From assembly GCA_004299555.1 (NCBI GenBank), contig SCQU01000026.1:1-64000 (forward strand): 64,000 nt of DNA, given 5' to 3'. The DNA is from Rhodanobacteraceae bacterium (GTDB lineage: Bacteria; Pseudomonadota; Gammaproteobacteria; Xanthomonadales; Rhodanobacteraceae). Numbering within the stretch: the first letter of the stretch is position 1; each line of letters starts with the position of its first letter. Shown one piece after another: positions 54,268 through 64,000 of this stretch. A program made the position numbers and the translations under genes. The notes beneath the pieces are model-generated. The model did not search any database, was not told where the DNA came from, and saw nothing but the letters and a program-made list of their open reading frames with translations.

Positions 54268-54873
54268 TCAGCGGGGCCCGATGGGCGGATCCTTGCGCTC
54301 CGTGCGGCCGGTGTCGATGCGGCCCCACATGAGCTTCCAGGCCAGAATCAGGACGACGGCGCCGCCGATCCCGACCAGGTACTTGCCCAGGCGCTGCTGG
54401 TCATCCAGCAGGTAGTTGCTGCACAGGCGCACAGGCGACACCAGGTACAGCCAGCCCATCCGGAAACAGGTCGCAATCAGTTCGACCAGGAACACACCGC
54501 GCACCACGAAGCCCATGCGCGGCCAGCTCAGCGCGATGGCCGCGCCCAGCAACAGCGGGACGCTCAGGAATTTCGCCAGCGTGACGAGCGGAACGTCCAC
54601 CGCGGCATCCATCGCGCGTGGCAGCATCCATACCAGACCCGTCAACGACGCCAGCACGAGCCCACTCACGCCGCGATGGTTCCACGCGGCGAGGACGCGC
54701 CGCAACCGCGCCGGCGTCCCCTGTGCGAGCAGCCAGCCCGCCACGCCCAGCAGCGGGATCTGCACCAGCATCTGCAGGGTCATCATCGACTCCAGCCCGC
54801 GTCGCACGGGCGGGATCGCCAGCACCGCCCACAAGGCCGCGCCGGCGAGGCACCAACGGCCGGCCAAATTCAA
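54268..54873 (-). CDS. Multi-span membrane protein of the heme-copper oxidase operon
   Basis: The 201-residue protein has about six hydrophobic helices (for example LWAVLAIPPV, MLVQIPLLGVAGWLL, GLVLASLTGLVWMLP, VVRGVFLVELIATC) and a polar C-terminal tail. No family is recognised with confidence. Its position as the last gene of an operon with SCO and both oxidase subunits suggests an assembly factor (CtaG-like) or accessory subunit. The TTG start overlaps the SCO stop (TTGA), implying coupled translation. Confidence 0.7.
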   Translation of the reverse strand: MNLAGRWCLAGAALWAVLAIPPVRRGLESMMTLQMLVQIPLLGVAGWLLAQGTPARLRRVLAAWNHRGVSGLVLASLTGLVWMLPRAMDAAVDVPLVTLAKFLSVPLLLGAAIALSWPRMGFVVRGVFLVELIATCFRMGWLYLVSPVRLCSNYLLDDQQRLGKYLVGIGGAVVLILAWKLMWGRIDTGRTERKDPPIGPR

Positions 54874-55484
54874 GGTGTCAGCCGCCGCGTGATGTAACGC
54901 GCGGCGGCGCGTGGATCATCCCAATCCAGAATCGCGACCAGCTTGCCGTCGGGATTCACCACGTTGATCGCCGCATTGTGCACGAAGCCGCCCAACCCGT
55001 CCGCCACGGCGGTCACGCCAAACACGCGCATCAAAACCGCGCGGTCCGCGCTGGCCACCGCGCGCACTGCGACCCAACCGGTGCCGCTATCGCCGAAACG
55101 CCGCTGATAACCCGCCAGTTGTGCCGGTTCATCGCGCGGGTCGAAACTGACGCTCACCAGCGTCACCTTGCCCGCGGCGATGGGCCCGGCCAACCATCGT
55201 TGCAGGTTCGCGAACTCGCCGCCCTGTACCGAGCAGTACGTCGTGCAGCGGGTGTAAATGAAATCGACCAGCAGCCAGCGTCCGCGCAGCGCCGCGAAAC
55301 TGGTACGCGTGCCATCGGCAGCCTGCAGCACCAGCGGCGGTACCGGGCGCGGGTGCGTCCGCACATCGATGCGGCGTGCGGTCTCGGTCGTGTAGGCCCG
55401 AAAGCCGTCAGTGGAGAACGCGAGTACCGCGATCCCCGCTACCAGGATTGCCAGGCTAGCCAGCAGCGTCCGCAGCACGGTCAC
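54870..55484 (-). CDS. SCO1/SenC-type copper chaperone
   Basis: The 204-residue membrane-anchored thioredoxin-fold protein has an N-terminal helix (LLASLAILVAGIAVLAF), the copper-binding CxxxC at Cys80 and Cys84 (IYTRCTTYCSVQ) and the third ligand His169 in GGFVHNAAINVV. SCO proteins deliver copper to, or reduce, the CuA centre of subunit II. Here the cognate CuA-bearing subunit II lies two genes upstream. The GTG start overlaps the end of the subunit I gene by 29 bp. Confidence 0.9.
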   Translation of the reverse strand: MTVLRTLLASLAILVAGIAVLAFSTDGFRAYTTETARRIDVRTHPRPVPPLVLQAADGTRTSFAALRGRWLLVDFIYTRCTTYCSVQGGEFANLQRWLAGPIAAGKVTLVSVSFDPRDEPAQLAGYQRRFGDSGTGWVAVRAVASADRAVLMRVFGVTAVADGLGGFVHNAAINVVNPDGKLVAILDWDDPRAAARYITRRLTP

Positions 55485-56964
55485 CGAGGCCCCCGGCAGC
55501 AGCGGGTGAGGGCGTCTTCAGCAGGCCCACGGTTATGCGGATCGCGAAGTAGATCATCGCGAGCAGCACGAGGATCCCGCCGACCGATCCGATCGCGTCC
55601 GTGGGCAGCCAGGCCTCCAGGTGCGGATACATGCGCCTTGGCACGCTCAAGTGCCCCGCGTCGAGAAACGCAAACAGGAAGATCAGGGCACCCCCGACGT
55701 AAACCGGAAACCCGAGGCGATCGGCGCTGGAATTGGGCGGTGCGTGCGCGCGCGAGCCGATCACGTGGTACATCAACGCGAGCGCCATCGCCAGCGCACC
55801 CAGCAACAGGTAGAAATGGAAGTGTCCAGGCACCCATTGCGTGTTGTGCATCACCAGATTGATGCGGATGGTGCTGTCGAGCACCGCGGCGAAGCCCCCC
55901 GCGACCCAGCCAAACAGCGACAGCACGAGCAGCTTGGACGGCATCGACCAGCGCATGTTGGCACGGTAAATGTTTGTGAGCGCGCCGTAGGCCGTGACCA
56001 CCACCACCGGGAATCCGGAGGCCCAGGACACCGTCTGGCCCATCAGCAGGAACCAGTGCGGTTCGGCGTAATCCATCATCAAGTGGTGCGGGAACACGAT
56101 GATCACGAACAGCGTCGTCGCGGCCCACGCCCACAGGAACACGCGCGTCAGCGGATACGGCCGGCCGGAGTAGCGCGACAGCAGCTCGTAGATCGCGATC
56201 ACGCCCATGTAAATTGCGGCGTTGATGTACATGTGGCCGAACCAGTAGATCAGGGTCTTGGTAAACAGCGCATCGAGCACGACCTGCGGATAGAAGATGT
56301 TGATCAGGCTCATCACCAGAACCACGGCGCCGGCGAGGATCCCCAGCGAGTTGGCGATGATCATGCTGGTGCTGGCCACCACCGTCTTGGGATGGTTCTG
56401 GTCGATGGTGCCGCCGAACAACCAGTGCAGGCCCAGCGCCCGCCCCAGGTTGCCATAGACCTTGATGATTCCCGCCGCCGCGTCGAGGTAGAAAATCAGC
56501 TCCCCGACACCAATCAGCAGATACCCCAGCATGAACAACGCCGCGGCGTGCGGGCTCCACATGCCCACGCCATGCGTGGGCAATGGATACAGGAACGTCC
56601 ACAGCGCCGCATACCCGCCGCCAAAGATCGAAACGATGAGGCACAGCGCACCCAGCATGAACAGCACGTAATTGGTGACCAGGGCCCAGAGGTGCAGCCG
56701 CACGTACTTGCGCAGGAAGAACCACATGACCGCGGTCGTCGCCAGCACCATGCTGCCGACCATGCCGGCACCATGCATCGACAGCAGCTGGTAGAACAGG
56801 GCGGGGGGAACGCCGTACCAGTTGGCCTGCGTCATGCGCATGGCCACGCCGATCAGCATCATCAGCACAAACAGCACCACCGCGCTGATGATGTACAGGT
56901 TGAACGCCACGCGGTCTGCGCCCTGGAGCCGTTCTTCTTCGGGATACATGGTAAGTGAGGCCAT
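55456..56964 (-). CDS. Heme-copper oxidoreductase subunit I, B-family-related, lacking the catalytic Tyr
   Basis: The 502-residue protein has about 12-13 transmembrane helices. Heme and copper ligands are readable: His64 (LLSMHGAGM), His244 (YWFGHMYIN), His293-His294 (FPHHLMMD), and His381/His383 in HNTQWVPGHFHFY. The last motif and GHLSVPRRMY closely match Thermus ba3 (B-family) oxidase. In oxidases the CuB His is followed by a Tyr four residues later (HPIVY, HPEVY); here position 248 is Asn (HMYIN). Only Tyr246 is nearby. This is what B-family-derived NO reductases (eNOR-like) would show, so O2 versus NO reduction is open. AGGAGA precedes the ATG. Confidence 0.85.
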   Translation of the reverse strand: MASLTMYPEEERLQGADRVAFNLYIISAVVLFVLMMLIGVAMRMTQANWYGVPPALFYQLLSMHGAGMVGSMVLATTAVMWFFLRKYVRLHLWALVTNYVLFMLGALCLIVSIFGGGYAALWTFLYPLPTHGVGMWSPHAAALFMLGYLLIGVGELIFYLDAAAGIIKVYGNLGRALGLHWLFGGTIDQNHPKTVVASTSMIIANSLGILAGAVVLVMSLINIFYPQVVLDALFTKTLIYWFGHMYINAAIYMGVIAIYELLSRYSGRPYPLTRVFLWAWAATTLFVIIVFPHHLMMDYAEPHWFLLMGQTVSWASGFPVVVVTAYGALTNIYRANMRWSMPSKLLVLSLFGWVAGGFAAVLDSTIRINLVMHNTQWVPGHFHFYLLLGALAMALALMYHVIGSRAHAPPNSSADRLGFPVYVGGALIFLFAFLDAGHLSVPRRMYPHLEAWLPTDAIGSVGGILVLLAMIYFAIRITVGLLKTPSPAAAGGLGDRAADAAG

Positions 56965-57069
56965 GATCGTTCTCCTGCTCGTTCGGCATGCTCGGGCGCA
57001 TCGGCCAGTGTCCGATGCTGCCGTTTTTTTCTGTCACCGTGGATTCGCCCGGCAGCGGGCGCTACCACG

Positions 57070-57984
57070 TCATTGTTTGCGCTGTGCCGCCACGTCCTTC
57101 GCCGTCACGGTTGGCGCGTGGTTGCCCCAACTGGTACGTTCGTGGTTGATGGCCGCGGCAATTTCCTCGTCAGTGAGCTGGCTGCCCCAGCCGGGCATCT
57201 GCGCGGCGTAGGTCACGCCATTGATGGGCTTGCCCTGGGTGCCATTCAACACGATCTCGATATGTTCGGTCGGATCCTTGGCCGTCACCACGGGATTGCC
57301 CGCCAGCGGCGGGAAAACGTTGGGCACACCCTTGCCGCTCGCCTGGTGGCAGACGGCGCAATTGTCGTTGAACACCTTGGCGCCGAGCGCTGCGGTCGAC
57401 GCTTCGCCGTTGCCGCCCGCGGCGCCCTGCGTGCTGGCCACCGTCTGCCCGGCTGCAACCACCTGGAGCGTCTTGGTCATTTCCGCGTGCATGAGCCCGC
57501 AATACTCGAGGCACTGCACCTTGTAGACACCCGGATGGGTAAAGGTGTAGAGGACCTTGTTGGTGTAGCCGGGCATCGCCTGGGTCTGGGTCACGATGCG
57601 GTCGTCCGGCGCATACAACGCAAATCCGTGGTTCACGTCCTTGCTGGTGACGCGAAACTCCACCACGCTGCCGGTGCGCACCGTGTCCGGCTTGATCTGC
57701 CAGGACCACTGTTGTCCCACCACGTCCACGACCTGATGGGCCCCCAGGGGCGAATGCTGGGGCGGGATCGGAAAGTGATGCAAGGTGGCGTAACTGCCGA
57801 CGAAGAAGATCACCAGCAGTACCGCGAAAAGCCAGCCTTGCAGCCGGTGTGCGCGGTGCAGGGTCTTGCGCGTCGCGTCGTCGTCTGCCGGTTTCCCGCT
57901 CTGGCTGATGACGAGTATGAACCCCAGTGCAACCAAGCCGATGCCGCACAACACGATGATCCAAACTACATTCTGGACGATCAC
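57070..57984 (-). CDS. Heme-copper oxidoreductase subunit II with CuA and fused cytochrome c domain
   Basis: The protein has 304 residues if started at the GTG at 57984 (GGGGTG 6 nt upstream); a GTG at 58038 overlaps the promoter and is unlikely. Two N-terminal helices anchor a periplasmic cupredoxin with CuA ligands His119, Cys158-EYC, Cys162, His166 and Met169 (CLEYCGLMHAEM). A c-type cytochrome follows, with CAVCH at 209-213 and a later Met in QMPGWGSQL. The layout resembles caa3-type subunit II, in which electrons enter through the fused heme. It is the first gene of an operon with subunit I, SCO and a membrane protein. Confidence 0.88.
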   Translation of the reverse strand: MIVQNVVWIIVLCGIGLVALGFILVISQSGKPADDDATRKTLHRAHRLQGWLFAVLLVIFFVGSYATLHHFPIPPQHSPLGAHQVVDVVGQQWSWQIKPDTVRTGSVVEFRVTSKDVNHGFALYAPDDRIVTQTQAMPGYTNKVLYTFTHPGVYKVQCLEYCGLMHAEMTKTLQVVAAGQTVASTQGAAGGNGEASTAALGAKVFNDNCAVCHQASGKGVPNVFPPLAGNPVVTAKDPTEHIEIVLNGTQGKPINGVTYAAQMPGWGSQLTDEEIAAAINHERTSWGNHAPTVTAKDVAAQRKQ

Positions 57985-58016
57985 GGCAGTCACCCCACTC
58001 CGGCTGCAATTGGGTG

Positions 58017-58045
58017 TTTCTACACTGATCGGCAGCACATATCAA
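58017..58045 (-). promoter_or_regulatory. Sigma70-like promoter for the heme-copper operon
   Basis: On the minus strand TTGATA (complement of 58040-58045), a 17-bp spacer and TAGAAA (complement of 58017-58022). It gives a leader of about 25-30 nt before the GTG at 57984. No clear FNR, NsrR or NorR operator is seen. Confidence 0.5.
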
Positions 58046-58214
58046 CCATCCGGACCGCCGGTGCCTGTTCGGTCTGCGTGGGACCCGGTCGGCACCTGGC
58101 TGGCCACCCAATTTTCAGCGGTCTGGTCAAATTCAGGCCCGCGCGAACCGCGGCCACGCACAGCCGGCGAGCCAGGTTCCAGGCGGCGTTGAGACGCCGT
58201 TGGGCCACCCGCCA

Positions 58215-61200
58215 TCAATGCAGTCCGGGGTTGCCGGTCACCGCAGCATCGGCACCCAGGCCGGAGGGTTCGACGGCTTTCCCTTTGACCGTCGCCACGT
58301 AGGTGTAGATCACCGGCACGACGTAGAGCGAGATCACCGCACCGCTGGTCAACCCGGTCGCGATCACCAGGCCCATGTCAAACCGGCTCACGGCACCGGG
58401 GCCACTGGCGACCAGTAGTGGCACCACGCCAAACACCATCGCGCAGGTGGTCATGAGGATCGGCCGCAACCGGATGCTGGAGGCCCGCTCCGCCGCGGCG
58501 CGCCGGTCGAGGCCTTCTTCCTCCTGGATGACGTTGGCGAACTGCACGATCAGGATGCTCTGCTTGGTGATCAGTCCGATCAGGGTGATCAAGCCCACTT
58601 CCGTGTAGATGTTCAGCGTGGCCGCGCCGAGGTACAGGAAGACCAGCGCGCCAAATACCGACATCGGCACCGCCACCAGCACGATGAGTGGATCGCGGAA
58701 ACTTTCAAATTGCCCGGCCAGCAGCAGGAACACCAGCAGGATCGACAGCGCAAAGGTGACCATGATCGCGTGGCCCTGCTGGATGAACTGGCGCGATTGG
58801 CTGGCGTAGTCGACGCTGTAGCTGGCCGGCAGCGTGCGGTGGGCAAGGTTCTTCAGGTAATCGAGGGCCTGCCCAAGCGTGACCCCGGGCGCCATGGTGC
58901 CCTGGATGGTGACGGAGTTGAGCTGTTGGAACTGCGGCAGGTATTCAGGCTCTACGCTGTGCTTGACGTTGACCACGGTCGTCAGGGGTACCAGCTTGCC
59001 GCCGCCCGTCCTGACGTAGTAACGGCCCAGCGCATTGACGTTGGCGCGCATGGCATCGGGCACCTGCGGGATGACCTCGTAACTGTGTCCGGACATGTCA
59101 AAGCGCCCGACAAAATTTTCGCTCAACAGCGGACTCAGGTCCTGGCCGACGTCGCTCATGCTGAGGCCGAGGTTGGCGGCAACATCGCGGTTCACATCCA
59201 GCGAGATGTGCGGGCTGTCGTAACGCAGGTCCTTGGTGAGAAACGCGAATTGCCCGCTCTGCATCGCGGTGCCGATCAGCTTGCCGGCGGCGGCGTCGAG
59301 CTGCTGGTAGCCGTTGGGCGAAGTCAGCACGAACTGGATTGGCAGACCGCCGGAAGAGCCCGGCAGAGAGGGCAACGTAAAGGCCACCGTCTGCAAACCC
59401 GTGACGCTGCCCAACTTCTGCTGCATCTGCGGCATGATTTGCATCAACGTGCGCGAGCGCTTGTCCCAAGGCTTCAGGTTGGTACCGGCGATCACCGCGT
59501 TGTTGCCGGCACCGCCCGGCGGTGCGAGGCCACTGATCTGCCACACCAGCGCATTTTCCGGGAAGCTCTCGAAGATCTTGCGTATCTCACGGTTGTAAAT
59601 GTTGAGGTAGTGCAGCGTCGCCGTCGCGGGCGCGAGGCCTTCGGCGATGATCACGCCCTGGTCTTCGGTGGGTGCGAGCTCGCTCTTTGCCCCCAGGAAC
59701 AGGAACGGGATGCTGATGAACACGCACGCGGCCGCCAGCAGCACCAGCGGCCGAAAGCCCATCACCAGGTGCAGCGAACGGTCATACAGATGGCGTACGC
59801 GCGCGAACCCCTGATCCAGGACGTGGGTGAAGCCTTTCGCCGGCGTCGGACGCAGCACCCTGGAGCTCAACATCGGCGTCAGCGTCAGCGCGACGATCAT
59901 CGAGATGACGACCGTCGCGACCAGCGTGAACGCAAATTCCGTGAACAGGCTGCCGGTCAGGCCACCCATGAAGCCGATCGGGATGAAGACCGCGACCAGG
60001 GTGGTCGACATCACGAGGATCGGGCTTGCCAGCTCGCGTGCGCCGTGGATGGCGGCCTGCACCGGTGTTTCGCCGTCATCGATCAGGCGCTGGATGTTTT
60101 CCAGCACGATGATCGCGTCATCGACCACCAGGCCAATCGCCAGCACCACCGCGAGCAGCGTCAGCAAATTGATGGTGAAGCCGAGCGCCAGCATGATGAT
60201 GCCGGCACCAATGACCGACAGCGGAATGGCCACTGCCGGCAGCAACAGCGAACGCAAGGATCCCAGGAACAGGAAGATCACGATCACCACCACGACCAGG
60301 GTGATGACGATGGTGGAAATCACCTCGTGCAACGACGCGGTGATGAAGGTGCTTTGATCCAGCGCGACGTGCGCCTGCATGCCGGGCGGTAGCGACGGCT
60401 TCAATTCGTTCAGTACCTTGTGCACACCGGCGGCGACATCGAGGTCGTTGGCGTTTGGCGTGGGCTGGACGCCGATGAACACCGAGGGCTTGCCGTCGTA
60501 GAACACCGCCTGGTTGTAGTTTTCGGCACCCAGCGTGACCTTGGCCACGTCCTTGAGGCGGATGACGGTGTTGCCGACATTCTTGACCACCAGATTCTGG
60601 AACTGCGCCAGGTCGTTGAGCGAGGTGGTCGCGGTGATGGTCACCTGCGTCTGCTGGTTGCGGGTGCTGCCGACCGCGGAAATGAAGTTGTTGGCCTGCA
60701 GCGCGTTGGACACGTCGGCAGGCGTGATGCCGCGCGCCGCCATGGCGGCAGGGTCCAGCCACGCGCGCAACGCGAACGCATTGCCGCTGGGGTCGGTACC
60801 GGCCGGTACGATCTGCGCCTGGCCGACGCCCGGCACGCCCTGGATCTTGGGCTGCGCCACCCGCAGCACGTAGTCGTTGATCTGTTGCTGGCTCAGGCCC
60901 TTGCCGGTAAACGCCAGGTACATGAGCGCGGTGGAACTGCCCACGGTTTCATTGATGGTCGACCGCTGGCTCTGGGCCGGCAGCAGGTTCTGCACCTGGT
61001 TGACCTTGGACAGGATCTGCGACACCGCGGCGTTCGGATCGAAGTTGAGCCGCATGTTCACGGTGATGGTGGAAATGCCCTCCGCGCTGCTGCTGGTCAG
61101 GTAGTCGATGCCCGGCGCGCTGGCGATCGCCTGTTGCAAGGGCGAGGTAATGAAGGCACGCACGGTTTCCGGGCTGGCGCCCGGATAGGCGGTGGTCACG

Positions 61201-61337
61201 GTGACCACGGTGTTGGTGACGGTCGGGTACTCGCGCACGGTCATGCCCGTCCACGCGCGCAGGCCCAGCAACAGGATGACGAGACTGATCGCGCTCGCAA
61301 GCACCGGGCGGCGAATGAAGATGTCGGTAAATTTCAT
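58215..61337 (-). CDS. RND multidrug efflux transporter, HAE1 type (MexB-like inner-membrane pump)
   Basis: The 1040-residue pump has the start MKFTDIFIRRPVLASAISLV, the two large periplasmic loops and 12 helices of the HAE1 family. The proton-relay Asp pair is in GLVVDDAIIVLENI. The conserved PLLVASGPGA near the C-terminus and the 2+2 repeat design are visible. It exports lipophilic compounds from the inner membrane or periplasm to the outer-membrane channel. The gene begins 12 bp after the adaptor stop. It is the last gene of the efflux operon; about 170 bp separate its stop from the oxidase operon promoter. Confidence 0.94.
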   Translation of the reverse strand: MKFTDIFIRRPVLASAISLVILLLGLRAWTGMTVREYPTVTNTVVTVTTAYPGASPETVRAFITSPLQQAIASAPGIDYLTSSSAEGISTITVNMRLNFDPNAAVSQILSKVNQVQNLLPAQSQRSTINETVGSSTALMYLAFTGKGLSQQQINDYVLRVAQPKIQGVPGVGQAQIVPAGTDPSGNAFALRAWLDPAAMAARGITPADVSNALQANNFISAVGSTRNQQTQVTITATTSLNDLAQFQNLVVKNVGNTVIRLKDVAKVTLGAENYNQAVFYDGKPSVFIGVQPTPNANDLDVAAGVHKVLNELKPSLPPGMQAHVALDQSTFITASLHEVISTIVITLVVVVIVIFLFLGSLRSLLLPAVAIPLSVIGAGIIMLALGFTINLLTLLAVVLAIGLVVDDAIIVLENIQRLIDDGETPVQAAIHGARELASPILVMSTTLVAVFIPIGFMGGLTGSLFTEFAFTLVATVVISMIVALTLTPMLSSRVLRPTPAKGFTHVLDQGFARVRHLYDRSLHLVMGFRPLVLLAAACVFISIPFLFLGAKSELAPTEDQGVIIAEGLAPATATLHYLNIYNREIRKIFESFPENALVWQISGLAPPGGAGNNAVIAGTNLKPWDKRSRTLMQIMPQMQQKLGSVTGLQTVAFTLPSLPGSSGGLPIQFVLTSPNGYQQLDAAAGKLIGTAMQSGQFAFLTKDLRYDSPHISLDVNRDVAANLGLSMSDVGQDLSPLLSENFVGRFDMSGHSYEVIPQVPDAMRANVNALGRYYVRTGGGKLVPLTTVVNVKHSVEPEYLPQFQQLNSVTIQGTMAPGVTLGQALDYLKNLAHRTLPASYSVDYASQSRQFIQQGHAIMVTFALSILLVFLLLAGQFESFRDPLIVLVAVPMSVFGALVFLYLGAATLNIYTEVGLITLIGLITKQSILIVQFANVIQEEEGLDRRAAAERASSIRLRPILMTTCAMVFGVVPLLVASGPGAVSRFDMGLVIATGLTSGAVISLYVVPVIYTYVATVKGKAVEPSGLGADAAVTGNPGLH

Positions 61338-61349
61338 GGGGCTGCCTCG

Positions 61350-62435
61350 CTACGGTTGCACGCTGTTGTCGACGGCAACCGGGGCGCCGTCGCGAAGCTT
61401 GTTTTGGCCCGCGGTGACCACCGTGTCACCGGCCTTGATACCCGACTGGACCAGCGCCAACCCGGCGCGCTGATCGCGCACCTTCACCACCTGCTCGTGC
61501 GCAATCAATGAATGCCTGGGGCCCGGGGTGACGATGTAAACATTGTCGCCGAAGGTGTTGTAGGTGATCGCGGTGTTCGGAACCACGACGCCGCGCAGCG
61601 CCTTGCCGACCGCGAGCTTGACGCTGCCATACATGCCCGGTCGCAGCAGGTCATGCGGGTTGGCAAGCGTCGCCTGCAACGCGATGTTGCGGGTGGCCGG
61701 ATCAACCCGCGAACCGAGTGCGGTGACCCGGCCCTCGAATACCTTGCCGGGGTAGGTGTTGACCGTGAAGGCCACCTCCTGGCCCACCGCGATCTCGCTC
61801 ACGCTGTTTTGCGGCAGCGAAAAATCCAGCAGCAACGGCGCGTAGCGTTGCAGGCTGACGACGCCCGCGCCGGGCGAAACGTATTGGCCAAGGCTCACCT
61901 CGCGGATGCCGGCTACGCCAGCGAACGGCGCCGTGATGTGCAACTTGTGCAGGGCGGCCTGGTCGCCTTCCACGGCGGCGCGGGCGGACCCTTCATTGGC
62001 CTCGGCGGTCTGCAGGTCCGACTGGCTCGCCGCGTGCGACGCGTACAGCTTGCGGGTGCGGGCCAGGGTGGCCGCCGCCAGTTTCAGCTTGGCCTGGTCG
62101 GCGTGGAGCAAGGCCAACTGGCTGGAGTCATCCAGGCTCACCAGCAGTTGCCCCTGCTGCACGTGCGCCCCGGAACGGAAGGCGATCCGGGTGACGTTGC
62201 CGGCGATCTGGGCGGTGATTTCGGTGCCATCCACCGCTTCGAGGCTACCGACGACGTTGACTTCGGGGCTCCAGGGTTCGTCGCGGGCGACGGCGGTGGA
62301 CACCGAAACGGGTGGAAAGCTGCGGTGGGAAGCCGCTTCGGCCGCTCGATGATTGGCATAGGACCTGCCGCCAAAAATCGCGCCGAACACGACGACCAGG
62401 ATCACCACCACCACGATCAATTGTTTGCGCACCAC
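61350..62435 (-). CDS. RND efflux periplasmic adaptor (membrane fusion protein)
   Basis: The 361-residue protein has an N-terminal hydrophobic helix (QLIVVVVILVVVFGAIFG) that anchors it to the inner membrane. The lipoyl/barrel-sandwich half (VNVVGSLEAVDGTEITAQIAGNV, HVQQGQLLVSLDDSSQL) and its partner half (HITAPFAGVAGIREVSLGQY) frame a long alpha-helical hairpin. A beta-barrel domain follows (PGMYGSVKLAVG). The GTG start has AAGGAGAG just upstream; a second GTG follows directly. It links the RND pump to the outer-membrane channel. Confidence 0.92.
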   Translation of the reverse strand: MVRKQLIVVVVILVVVFGAIFGGRSYANHRAAEAASHRSFPPVSVSTAVARDEPWSPEVNVVGSLEAVDGTEITAQIAGNVTRIAFRSGAHVQQGQLLVSLDDSSQLALLHADQAKLKLAAATLARTRKLYASHAASQSDLQTAEANEGSARAAVEGDQAALHKLHITAPFAGVAGIREVSLGQYVSPGAGVVSLQRYAPLLLDFSLPQNSVSEIAVGQEVAFTVNTYPGKVFEGRVTALGSRVDPATRNIALQATLANPHDLLRPGMYGSVKLAVGKALRGVVVPNTAITYNTFGDNVYIVTPGPRHSLIAHEQVVKVRDQRAGLALVQSGIKAGDTVVTAGQNKLRDGAPVAVDNSVQP

Positions 62436-62509
62436 GACTCTCCTTGCAAACGCCTGGTTCCGGCGTGAGCACCACCATTGCTTTTACGGGCCCGTTTGCA
62501 CGCGCGGCA

Positions 62510-64000
62510 TCAGCGCCTGTCGGTGACGGCGCCGTGGGCATCCGCAGACGCGTTCATCCACTCACCACCGCCCAGCGCGACGTACAGCGCCGCGGTATCG
62601 GCATAGCGTTGCGCCTCGGCCCGGACGAACGCGATGCGTGCGTTCTGGACCTGGGTTTCGCTGGCAAGCACGTTCAGAAAATCCACGCCGCCCGCGCGGT
62701 ACTGCGTCTGCACCAGCTCCGAGGCTTGCCGCGCATCGCGCAGGGCACGGGCCTGGGCATCCAGCAGCGCCGAATCATGTTCGAGCGCACGCAGCACGTC
62801 GGCCACATTGCGGAATGCGCCCAATACCGTGCCCTGGTAGTTGGCGAACACGCCACGATAGGCAGCCTGTGCCGCGTGTTTTTGCGCCCGCAGGGTGCCG
62901 CCTTCAAACAAGGGCATCACCAGACCCGCGGCCAAATTCCACAGCCGGCTGGCCGGGTCGAACAAGGTACCGGTGTGGTTGCTCTGGTCGCCAAAGCTGC
63001 CGGTGAGCTGCAGGTTCGGATACATCCGCGCGACCGCCTCGCCGACCTGCGCATTGGCGGCCCGCAGCTGTGCTTCCGCGGCCAGGACGTCGGGACGCTC
63101 GCGCACCAGGGTTGACGGCAGGCTGAGCGGCAGCGTCGCGGGCAGGCGCAGATCGGCCAGTGCAGGTGCGTGCAGAGTGCCCGTCGCGGAAGGAAATTCA
63201 CCGAGGTAAGTCGCCAGGAGATGCCGCGCAACATCGCGCGCCTGTTGCAATTGCTGCAGCTGCGCCTCGCTGCTGGCCAGCTGGCTTTCCTGGGTCAACA
63301 CGTCGAATTGGGAAGTCGCGCCCAGCTGGTAGCGGGTGCGCGTCAGTCCCAGGGTCTGGTGCTGGTCACTGACGGTTTTCCGGGTCGCGGCCACCTCGTC
63401 TTCGAGCGCGGCCAAATCCAGTGCCGCGTTCACCACATTGCCCTCGATGGTCAGGCGCGCGGCCAGCAGTTGATCCCGCGCGACGTCCACCCGCGCCTGC
63501 TGGTTGCGCGTCACCAGGCGGTTCAACCCGAATACGTCCGGGTAATAGCTGACCGACACCTGGCCGGTGTAAAGGTTGTACAGCTGCGGGCCGAAATTGC
63601 CGCCGGCAGCCGCGCCGGTGGTGCGCGTCCGCTCGCCGCCGAGCCCCAGCGAAACCTGCGGGTAGAACACGCCACGCGCAGCCTTCAGTTCGAACTGCGC
63701 GGTTTGCAGCGTGGCCTGCGCCGCCGCGAGATCCGGGTTGTGCGCCAGCGCCTCAGCCACGAGCCGGTCCAGCTCGGGCGAACCAAAGCCTTTCCACCAG
63801 CCCGGCTTGACCGTGGCGCCGGGCTCGAGTGTTTGCGCGCCGGCGACCGAACCCGGTGTGGACCGCGCGCGCGGAATCGTCGTGGCCAGCGGGGCCGCGG
63901 TATAGCCGCGAACATCGGGCGGCGCGGGCTTGTGATAGGCGGGCCCCACCGCGCAGGAGGCGAGCATGACGCTGCCGCAGAACACCAGTGCATACCGCCA
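62510..64000 (-). CDS. Outer-membrane efflux lipoprotein, TolC/NodT type (5' end cut by window edge)
   Basis: At least 490 residues are visible. The frame continues through the right edge with WRYALVFCGSVMLASCAVGPAY, so the start and part of the signal peptide lie outside. The lipobox LASC and the following AVGPAYHKP are typical of NodT-family channels. Two TolC-type repeats are present (ELDRLVAEALAHNPDLAAAQATL and the second half from RPDVLAAEAQLRAANAQVGEA). It forms the outer-membrane exit duct for the RND pump downstream. It is the first visible gene of the efflux operon; any regulator lies outside the window. Confidence 0.92.
   Translation of the reverse strand, partial: WRYALVFCGSVMLASCAVGPAYHKPAPPDVRGYTAAPLATTIPRARSTPGSVAGAQTLEPGATVKPGWWKGFGSPELDRLVAEALAHNPDLAAAQATLQTAQFELKAARGVFYPQVSLGLGGERTRTTGAAAGGNFGPQLYNLYTGQVSVSYYPDVFGLNRLVTRNQQARVDVARDQLLAARLTIEGNVVNAALDLAALEDEVAATRKTVSDQHQTLGLTRTRYQLGATSQFDVLTQESQLASSEAQLQQLQQARDVARHLLATYLGEFPSATGTLHAPALADLRLPATLPLSLPSTLVRERPDVLAAEAQLRAANAQVGEAVARMYPNLQLTGSFGDQSNHTGTLFDPASRLWNLAAGLVMPLFEGGTLRAQKHAAQAAYRGVFANYQGTVLGAFRNVADVLRALEHDSALLDAQARALRDARQASELVQTQYRAGGVDFLNVLASETQVQNARIAFVRAEAQRYADTAALYVALGGGEWMNASADAHGAVTDRR

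Follow-up and report, generated by a model that had tools for sequence, protein, structure and literature searches.

A probable sNOR-type nitric oxide reductase operon with a cytochrome c-tailed subunit II in a Rhodanobacteraceae bacterium

Here, we describe a minus-strand operon that very probably encodes an sNOR (norS-norY-senC-orf1), reducing NO to N2O, in a 64,000-nucleotide stretch of DNA from a Rhodanobacteraceae bacterium (contig SCQU01000026.1, positions 1 to 64,000; henceforth, the window). Apart from a small variation in subunit II, the locus is an ordinary representative of sNOR, a family that had already been proposed. Standard databases annotate sNOR genes as ordinary cytochrome c oxidases (PMC11388526), so that in denitrifiers of the Rhodanobacter group, which occur in soil and groundwater, a capacity to reduce NO and produce N2O is easily missed. 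N2O, the proposed product of sNOR, is a greenhouse gas.

Operon organization

Four tightly packed genes, all on the minus strand, encode in this order subunit II, subunit I, a SCO/SenC protein and a small membrane protein. The NorS-like subunit II (57070-58038) matched the Pfam models COX2 (E = 5e-9) and Cytochrom_C (E = 5e-12), and the NorY-like subunit I (55456-56964; 502 aa plus stop) matched COX1 (E = 4e-47). The start of the gene for the SCO1/SenC-type copper chaperone (54870-55484; Pfam SCO1-SenC, E = 4e-12) overlaps the end of the subunit I gene, and its stop is in turn overlapped by the start of the small membrane protein gene (54268-54873). The latter's product had no Pfam match and is termed orf1-like here on the basis of its homology to orf1 of the norSY-senC-orf1 operon. 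A SCO protein and an extra membrane protein had both been expected in the operon by the original prediction, and both are present, just outside the bounds it had drawn for the locus. As to the 5' end of the operon, the subunit II ORF begins with a GTG codon at 58038; the true start is more likely the GTG at 57984, from which the protein would begin VIVQNVVW, to be compared with MILQNVVW in its relatives.

This gene order equals that of the published sNOR operon, norSY-senC-orf1 (PMC4940428), and is also kept in Ruegeria pomeroyi. Homologues of SenC and of orf1 were found near subunit I in all 80 relative loci on named contigs (80/80), and the orf1 of the window shares 47% identity with its positional counterpart in Nitrosomonas mobilis. 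No FNR/NNR-type box was detected upstream of the operon, near 58000-58200. Directly upstream, on the same strand, lie the genes of an RND efflux system (58215-63985; membrane fusion protein, RND pump and outer membrane factor), which have no obvious functional tie to the sNOR operon.

Active site of subunit I

In translation, subunit I reads YWFGH244-M-Y-I-N248-AAIYMG, IVFPH293H294L and VMH373NTQWVPGH381FH383. It thereby holds the CuB ligands H244, H293 and H294 and, within the HNTQWVPGHFH motif, H373, H381 and H383; the His ligand columns were invariant across the family in our alignment. The diagnostic motif, H244-M-Y-I-N248, is encoded at 56221-56235 on the minus strand (DNA CACATGTACATCAAC) and places Asn248 four residues past the CuB ligand His244, where A- and B-family oxidases carry the cross-linking Tyr. 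With these motifs and the COX1 match, the description of the protein as a B-family-like heme-copper enzyme that has Asn in place of this Tyr stands as originally given.

The relatives used for comparison were gathered from whole genomes, plasmids and named genome contigs, with 82 distinct sequences entering the alignment. Asn248 was invariant in these 82/82 relatives and can hence be attributed neither to a sequencing slip nor to chance. The same column held Tyr in 5/5 B-family oxygen reductases and Gln in 26/26 eNOR-like proteins. A published residue table (PMC8756737) assigns Asn to sNOR, Gln to eNOR, Tyr to oxygen reductases and Glu to cNOR/qNOR, and it lists Silicibacter, as Ruegeria pomeroyi was once called, for sNOR. 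The ba3-type (B-family) oxygen reductases share with the window's enzyme the metal and heme ligands, the HNTQWVPGHFH motif and a CuA subunit II, yet differ by Tyr at the cross-link site and at one further K-channel position; N248 is at odds with membership among them.

From the loss of Tyr in a B-family background, the original prediction had proposed an eNOR-type NO reductase. An eNOR would indeed share the B-family-like motifs, the cupredoxin subunit II and the missing Tyr with the window's enzyme, and NO reductase is still the most likely function; the eNOR label itself, however, is refuted both by the active-site Asn (eNOR proteins have Gln, both in the table of PMC8756737 and, for the eNOR-like set, in our alignment) and by the tree described below, in which the two groups occupy separate branches, which leaves a vanishingly small chance for it. 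Asn248 together with a SenC/orf1 operon is instead the signature of sNOR, a family that had been on the list of candidates in that prediction and was passed over.

Phylogenetic placement

A maximum-likelihood tree of subunit I (quick search, SH-aLRT support, no bootstraps; some long branches) placed the window protein deep in a clade of Asn-bearing proteins that includes those of Nitrosomonas sp. Nm33, N. halophila, N. mobilis, Nitrococcus mobilis and Ruegeria pomeroyi. Proteins with Tyr (ba3-type) and those with Gln (eNOR-like) sit together on the other side of the tree. Clustering with characterised oxygen reductases, a check to which the original prediction had exposed itself, was thus not what we found: the protein does not group with the Tyr-bearing oxidases. 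Subunit I is 47-48% identical to Nitrosomonas NorY (47% to that of Nitrosomonas mobilis) and 64% identical to the Nitrococcus mobilis protein. The closest named relatives are Rhodanobacteraceae. norSY-SenC has been recorded for Nitrosomonas mobilis (PMC5118430), and PMC6967387 refers to Nitrococcus mobilis as a case with indirect evidence for sNOR activity. NCBIfam holds no sNOR model, and its best matches to subunit I fell far under the cut-off. Taken feature by feature, the sNORs of Nitrosomonas and Nitrococcus, which are oxidisers of ammonia and nitrite, share with the window the gene order, the Asn for Tyr exchange, a two-helix CuA subunit II, SenC and orf1; their subunit II, on the other hand, ends without the C-terminal cytochrome c domain, and the presence of denitrification genes in the window's host is a further difference.

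Another family with a comparable operon is bNOR (CuANOR, qCuANOR) of Bacillus azotoformans, which likewise has the Asn and a CuA subunit II, and whose operon includes SenC and a membrane protein (PMC3475470). Could the window's enzyme be a bNOR, or an nNOR, rather than an sNOR? We regard this as very unlikely. bNOR has been reported from Bacillota only (PMC11388526), whereas the nearest relatives here are Pseudomonadota, and its published description (subunit I of ~568 aa with 13 helices, subunit II of ~153 aa with one helix, and a small cbaC peptide; PMC3475470) differs from the 502-aa subunit I and the two-helix subunit II of the window. Subunit I has 12 long helices; together with the two of subunit II, these agree with the numbers published for the Bacillus type II enzyme, 12 and two (PMC3475470). 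In the tree, which comprised no Bacillota bNOR or nNOR sequence, the closest relatives were named holders of sNOR.

Some members were encountered outside the expected groups. Two sNOR operons (L082 and L083; 56-57% identical) lie on contigs titled Gemmatimonadota, and another (L023) is located on a Ruegeria megaplasmid beside a cbb3 operon, a Rrf2-type regulator and a formate/nitrite transporter; their occurrence there suggests horizontal transfer of sNOR operons. A more remote relative on a Thermomicrobium roseum plasmid (L024, 3938-5419; 33% identity) reads FGHTLVN and therefore also has the Asn. It adjoins a gene for a CuA subunit and one for a formate/nitrite transporter; its position in the tree is unsure owing to a long branch, and it may belong to another NOR family.

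Substitute tyrosines and the proton channel

Two other tyrosines had been named as possible stand-ins for the missing residue, and neither held up. Tyr246 occupies a variable column (Y in 41, F in 38 and other residues in 5 of 84 sequences) and was rejected as an alternative cross-linker given that Phe replaces it in nearly half the family. A C-family (cbb3-like) cross-linking Tyr on helix VII was likewise rejected: the corresponding position, six residues before the first CuB His of that helix, is Val287 and is Val in 82/82 relatives, and the same check returned Tyr for the genome's own cbb3 subunit CcoN. Two further helix VI tyrosines, Tyr252 and Tyr259, do not vary within the family, the latter being present in B-family oxidases, too. 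Judging from the sequence, they should sit two (Tyr252) and almost four (Tyr259) turns below His244, and we know of no cross-linking at such positions.

Besides, subunit I has lost part of the B-family K-channel. The K-channel Tyr seven residues past the cross-link site is Val in the window protein, as is the helix VIII Ser/Thr, while Tyr259 and Thr324 are retained. sNOR has been stated in print to be devoid of a proton channel, and the K-channel residues appear to match this statement in part. An AlphaFold model of subunit I (built with 41 relatives and no hemes; mean pLDDT 84.9, pTM 0.89) matched heme-copper oxidases generally, with Z-scores of up to 37.9, and picked out no single family.

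These residues bear on the main competing explanation, namely that the enzyme acts chiefly as a high-affinity oxygen reductase and dispenses with the usual cross-linked Tyr, a role that has been suggested for the sNOR of Nitrosomonas europaea. In that organism, transcription of all sNOR genes went up under oxygen limitation, which was read as suggesting a high-affinity oxidase, and sNOR was affiliated with B-type oxidases (PMC6967387). The intact CuB ligands and CuA site of the window proteins and the invariance of Tyr252 and Tyr259 would be compatible with such a role. Against it stand the absence of Tyr from either known cross-link site throughout the 82 relatives, the replacement of one K-channel Tyr and of the helix VIII Ser/Thr by hydrophobic residues, and the fact that the genome already owns an aa3-type and a cbb3-type oxidase. 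On balance, the sequence data appear to weigh against oxygen as the main substrate, and we consider this explanation improbable, albeit less so than bNOR or nNOR.

Subunit II and its cytochrome c tail

Subunit II consists of two N-terminal transmembrane helices, a CuA cupredoxin domain (CuA motif CLEYCGLMHAEM) and a C-terminal class I cytochrome c domain with a single CxxCH heme site, in line with the CuA and c-type heme foreseen for this protein. According to PMC8756737, a cupredoxin takes the place of a heme c fold in the subunit II of sNOR-type enzymes, and the combination of CuA and cytochrome c in one subunit II thus represents a departure from that description. It is this fused domain (57073-57393, minus strand; Pfam Cytochrom_C) that constitutes the uncommon part of the operon: of the 78 named-contig loci in which a subunit II was detectable, 3 (L027, L047 and L049) share it with the window. 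The original prediction had regarded the enzyme as a less common, CuA-bearing and cytochrome c-linked form, which applies to the added c-heme only, as CuA belongs to the usual make-up of sNOR. A cytochrome c domain fused behind CuA is a familiar arrangement in the caa3-type oxidases, A-family enzymes that have it in their subunit II, though with a subunit I of another family and another active-site residue.

Within the genome, the closest paralogues of the tail are the C-terminal domains of CcoO (54% identity), of a short membrane cytochrome (53%) and of the NirK-like protein (49%), and related genomes show tails of this type on CcoO and NirK as well. Together with the sNOR subunit II, four proteins of this genome thus bear a cytochrome c tail of ~107 aa (L148-L151, at 57073-57393 of the window, G000:C26:70795-71109, G000:C19:57631-57951 and G000:C19:30905-31210); the NirK-like one also has an N-terminal membrane region. 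The window tail is 77% identical to that of L027. The tail of L047, by comparison, is nearer to a NirK tail (67%) than to the window tail (54%), and relatives without the fusion (L026, L042, L051 and L085) share a small clade with the fused ones. Both observations suggest that the tail was fused to subunit II at least twice. A more far-reaching and rather tentative interpretation, which we hold to be possible but somewhat doubtful, is that of an sNOR subtype whose subunit II gained, at least twice independently, a cytochrome c module shared with NirK and CcoO, and in which nitrite reductase, NO reductase and oxidase might be served by one donor through a common docking domain.

Genomic context and proposed function

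The genome (2.98 Mb in 29 contigs, 98% complete) encodes five heme-copper proteins, i.e. an aa3-type and a cbb3 oxidase, a cNOR-like pair, a qNOR and the sNOR, with the cNOR-like and qNOR proteins having Glu at the Tyr position. NarG is present above the cut-off (1995 bits). NirK-like and NosZ-like proteins were found as well, both with scores short of the curated cut-offs set for the respective models. The sNOR operon is not located beside other denitrification genes. Given the genes for NarG, NirK-like, cNOR-like, qNOR and NosZ-like proteins, NO reduction is the likely role of the operon, and a third NO reductase is plausible in such a genome.

We return to sNOR as the preferred reading and to NO reductase as the most likely activity, a conclusion drawn from sequence. 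Judging from family membership, NO would be reduced to N2O at the high-spin heme/CuB centre of subunit I. Electrons may enter from the periplasm at the fused c-type heme and pass via CuA of subunit II and the low-spin heme to heme/CuB; the tail could allow subunit II to take them straight from the donor pool that also feeds NirK and the cbb3 oxidase. Asn248 would be unable to give the radical and the proton that Tyr gives for O2 splitting. Lacking this Tyr and part of the proton channel, the enzyme probably draws its protons from outside, and its NO reduction is unlikely to be coupled to pumping. SenC would help in copper loading, and orf1 may act as an assembly factor or third subunit. In the literature consulted, we found no purified-enzyme proof of sNOR activity, and sNOR was listed only as proposed in 2024 (PMC11388526). 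A tail-bearing sNOR whose host genome encodes cNOR-like and qNOR enzymes as well would be a handy subject for deciding between NO and O2 reduction.

The cNOR-like locus of this genome (L003, G000:C6:114718-118917) has features of its own. Its catalytic subunit is unusually long at 574 aa, with no match among the NCBIfam models. The neighbouring protein, of 325 aa, contains two cytochrome c domains, and a multicopper-oxidase-like protein is encoded further on.
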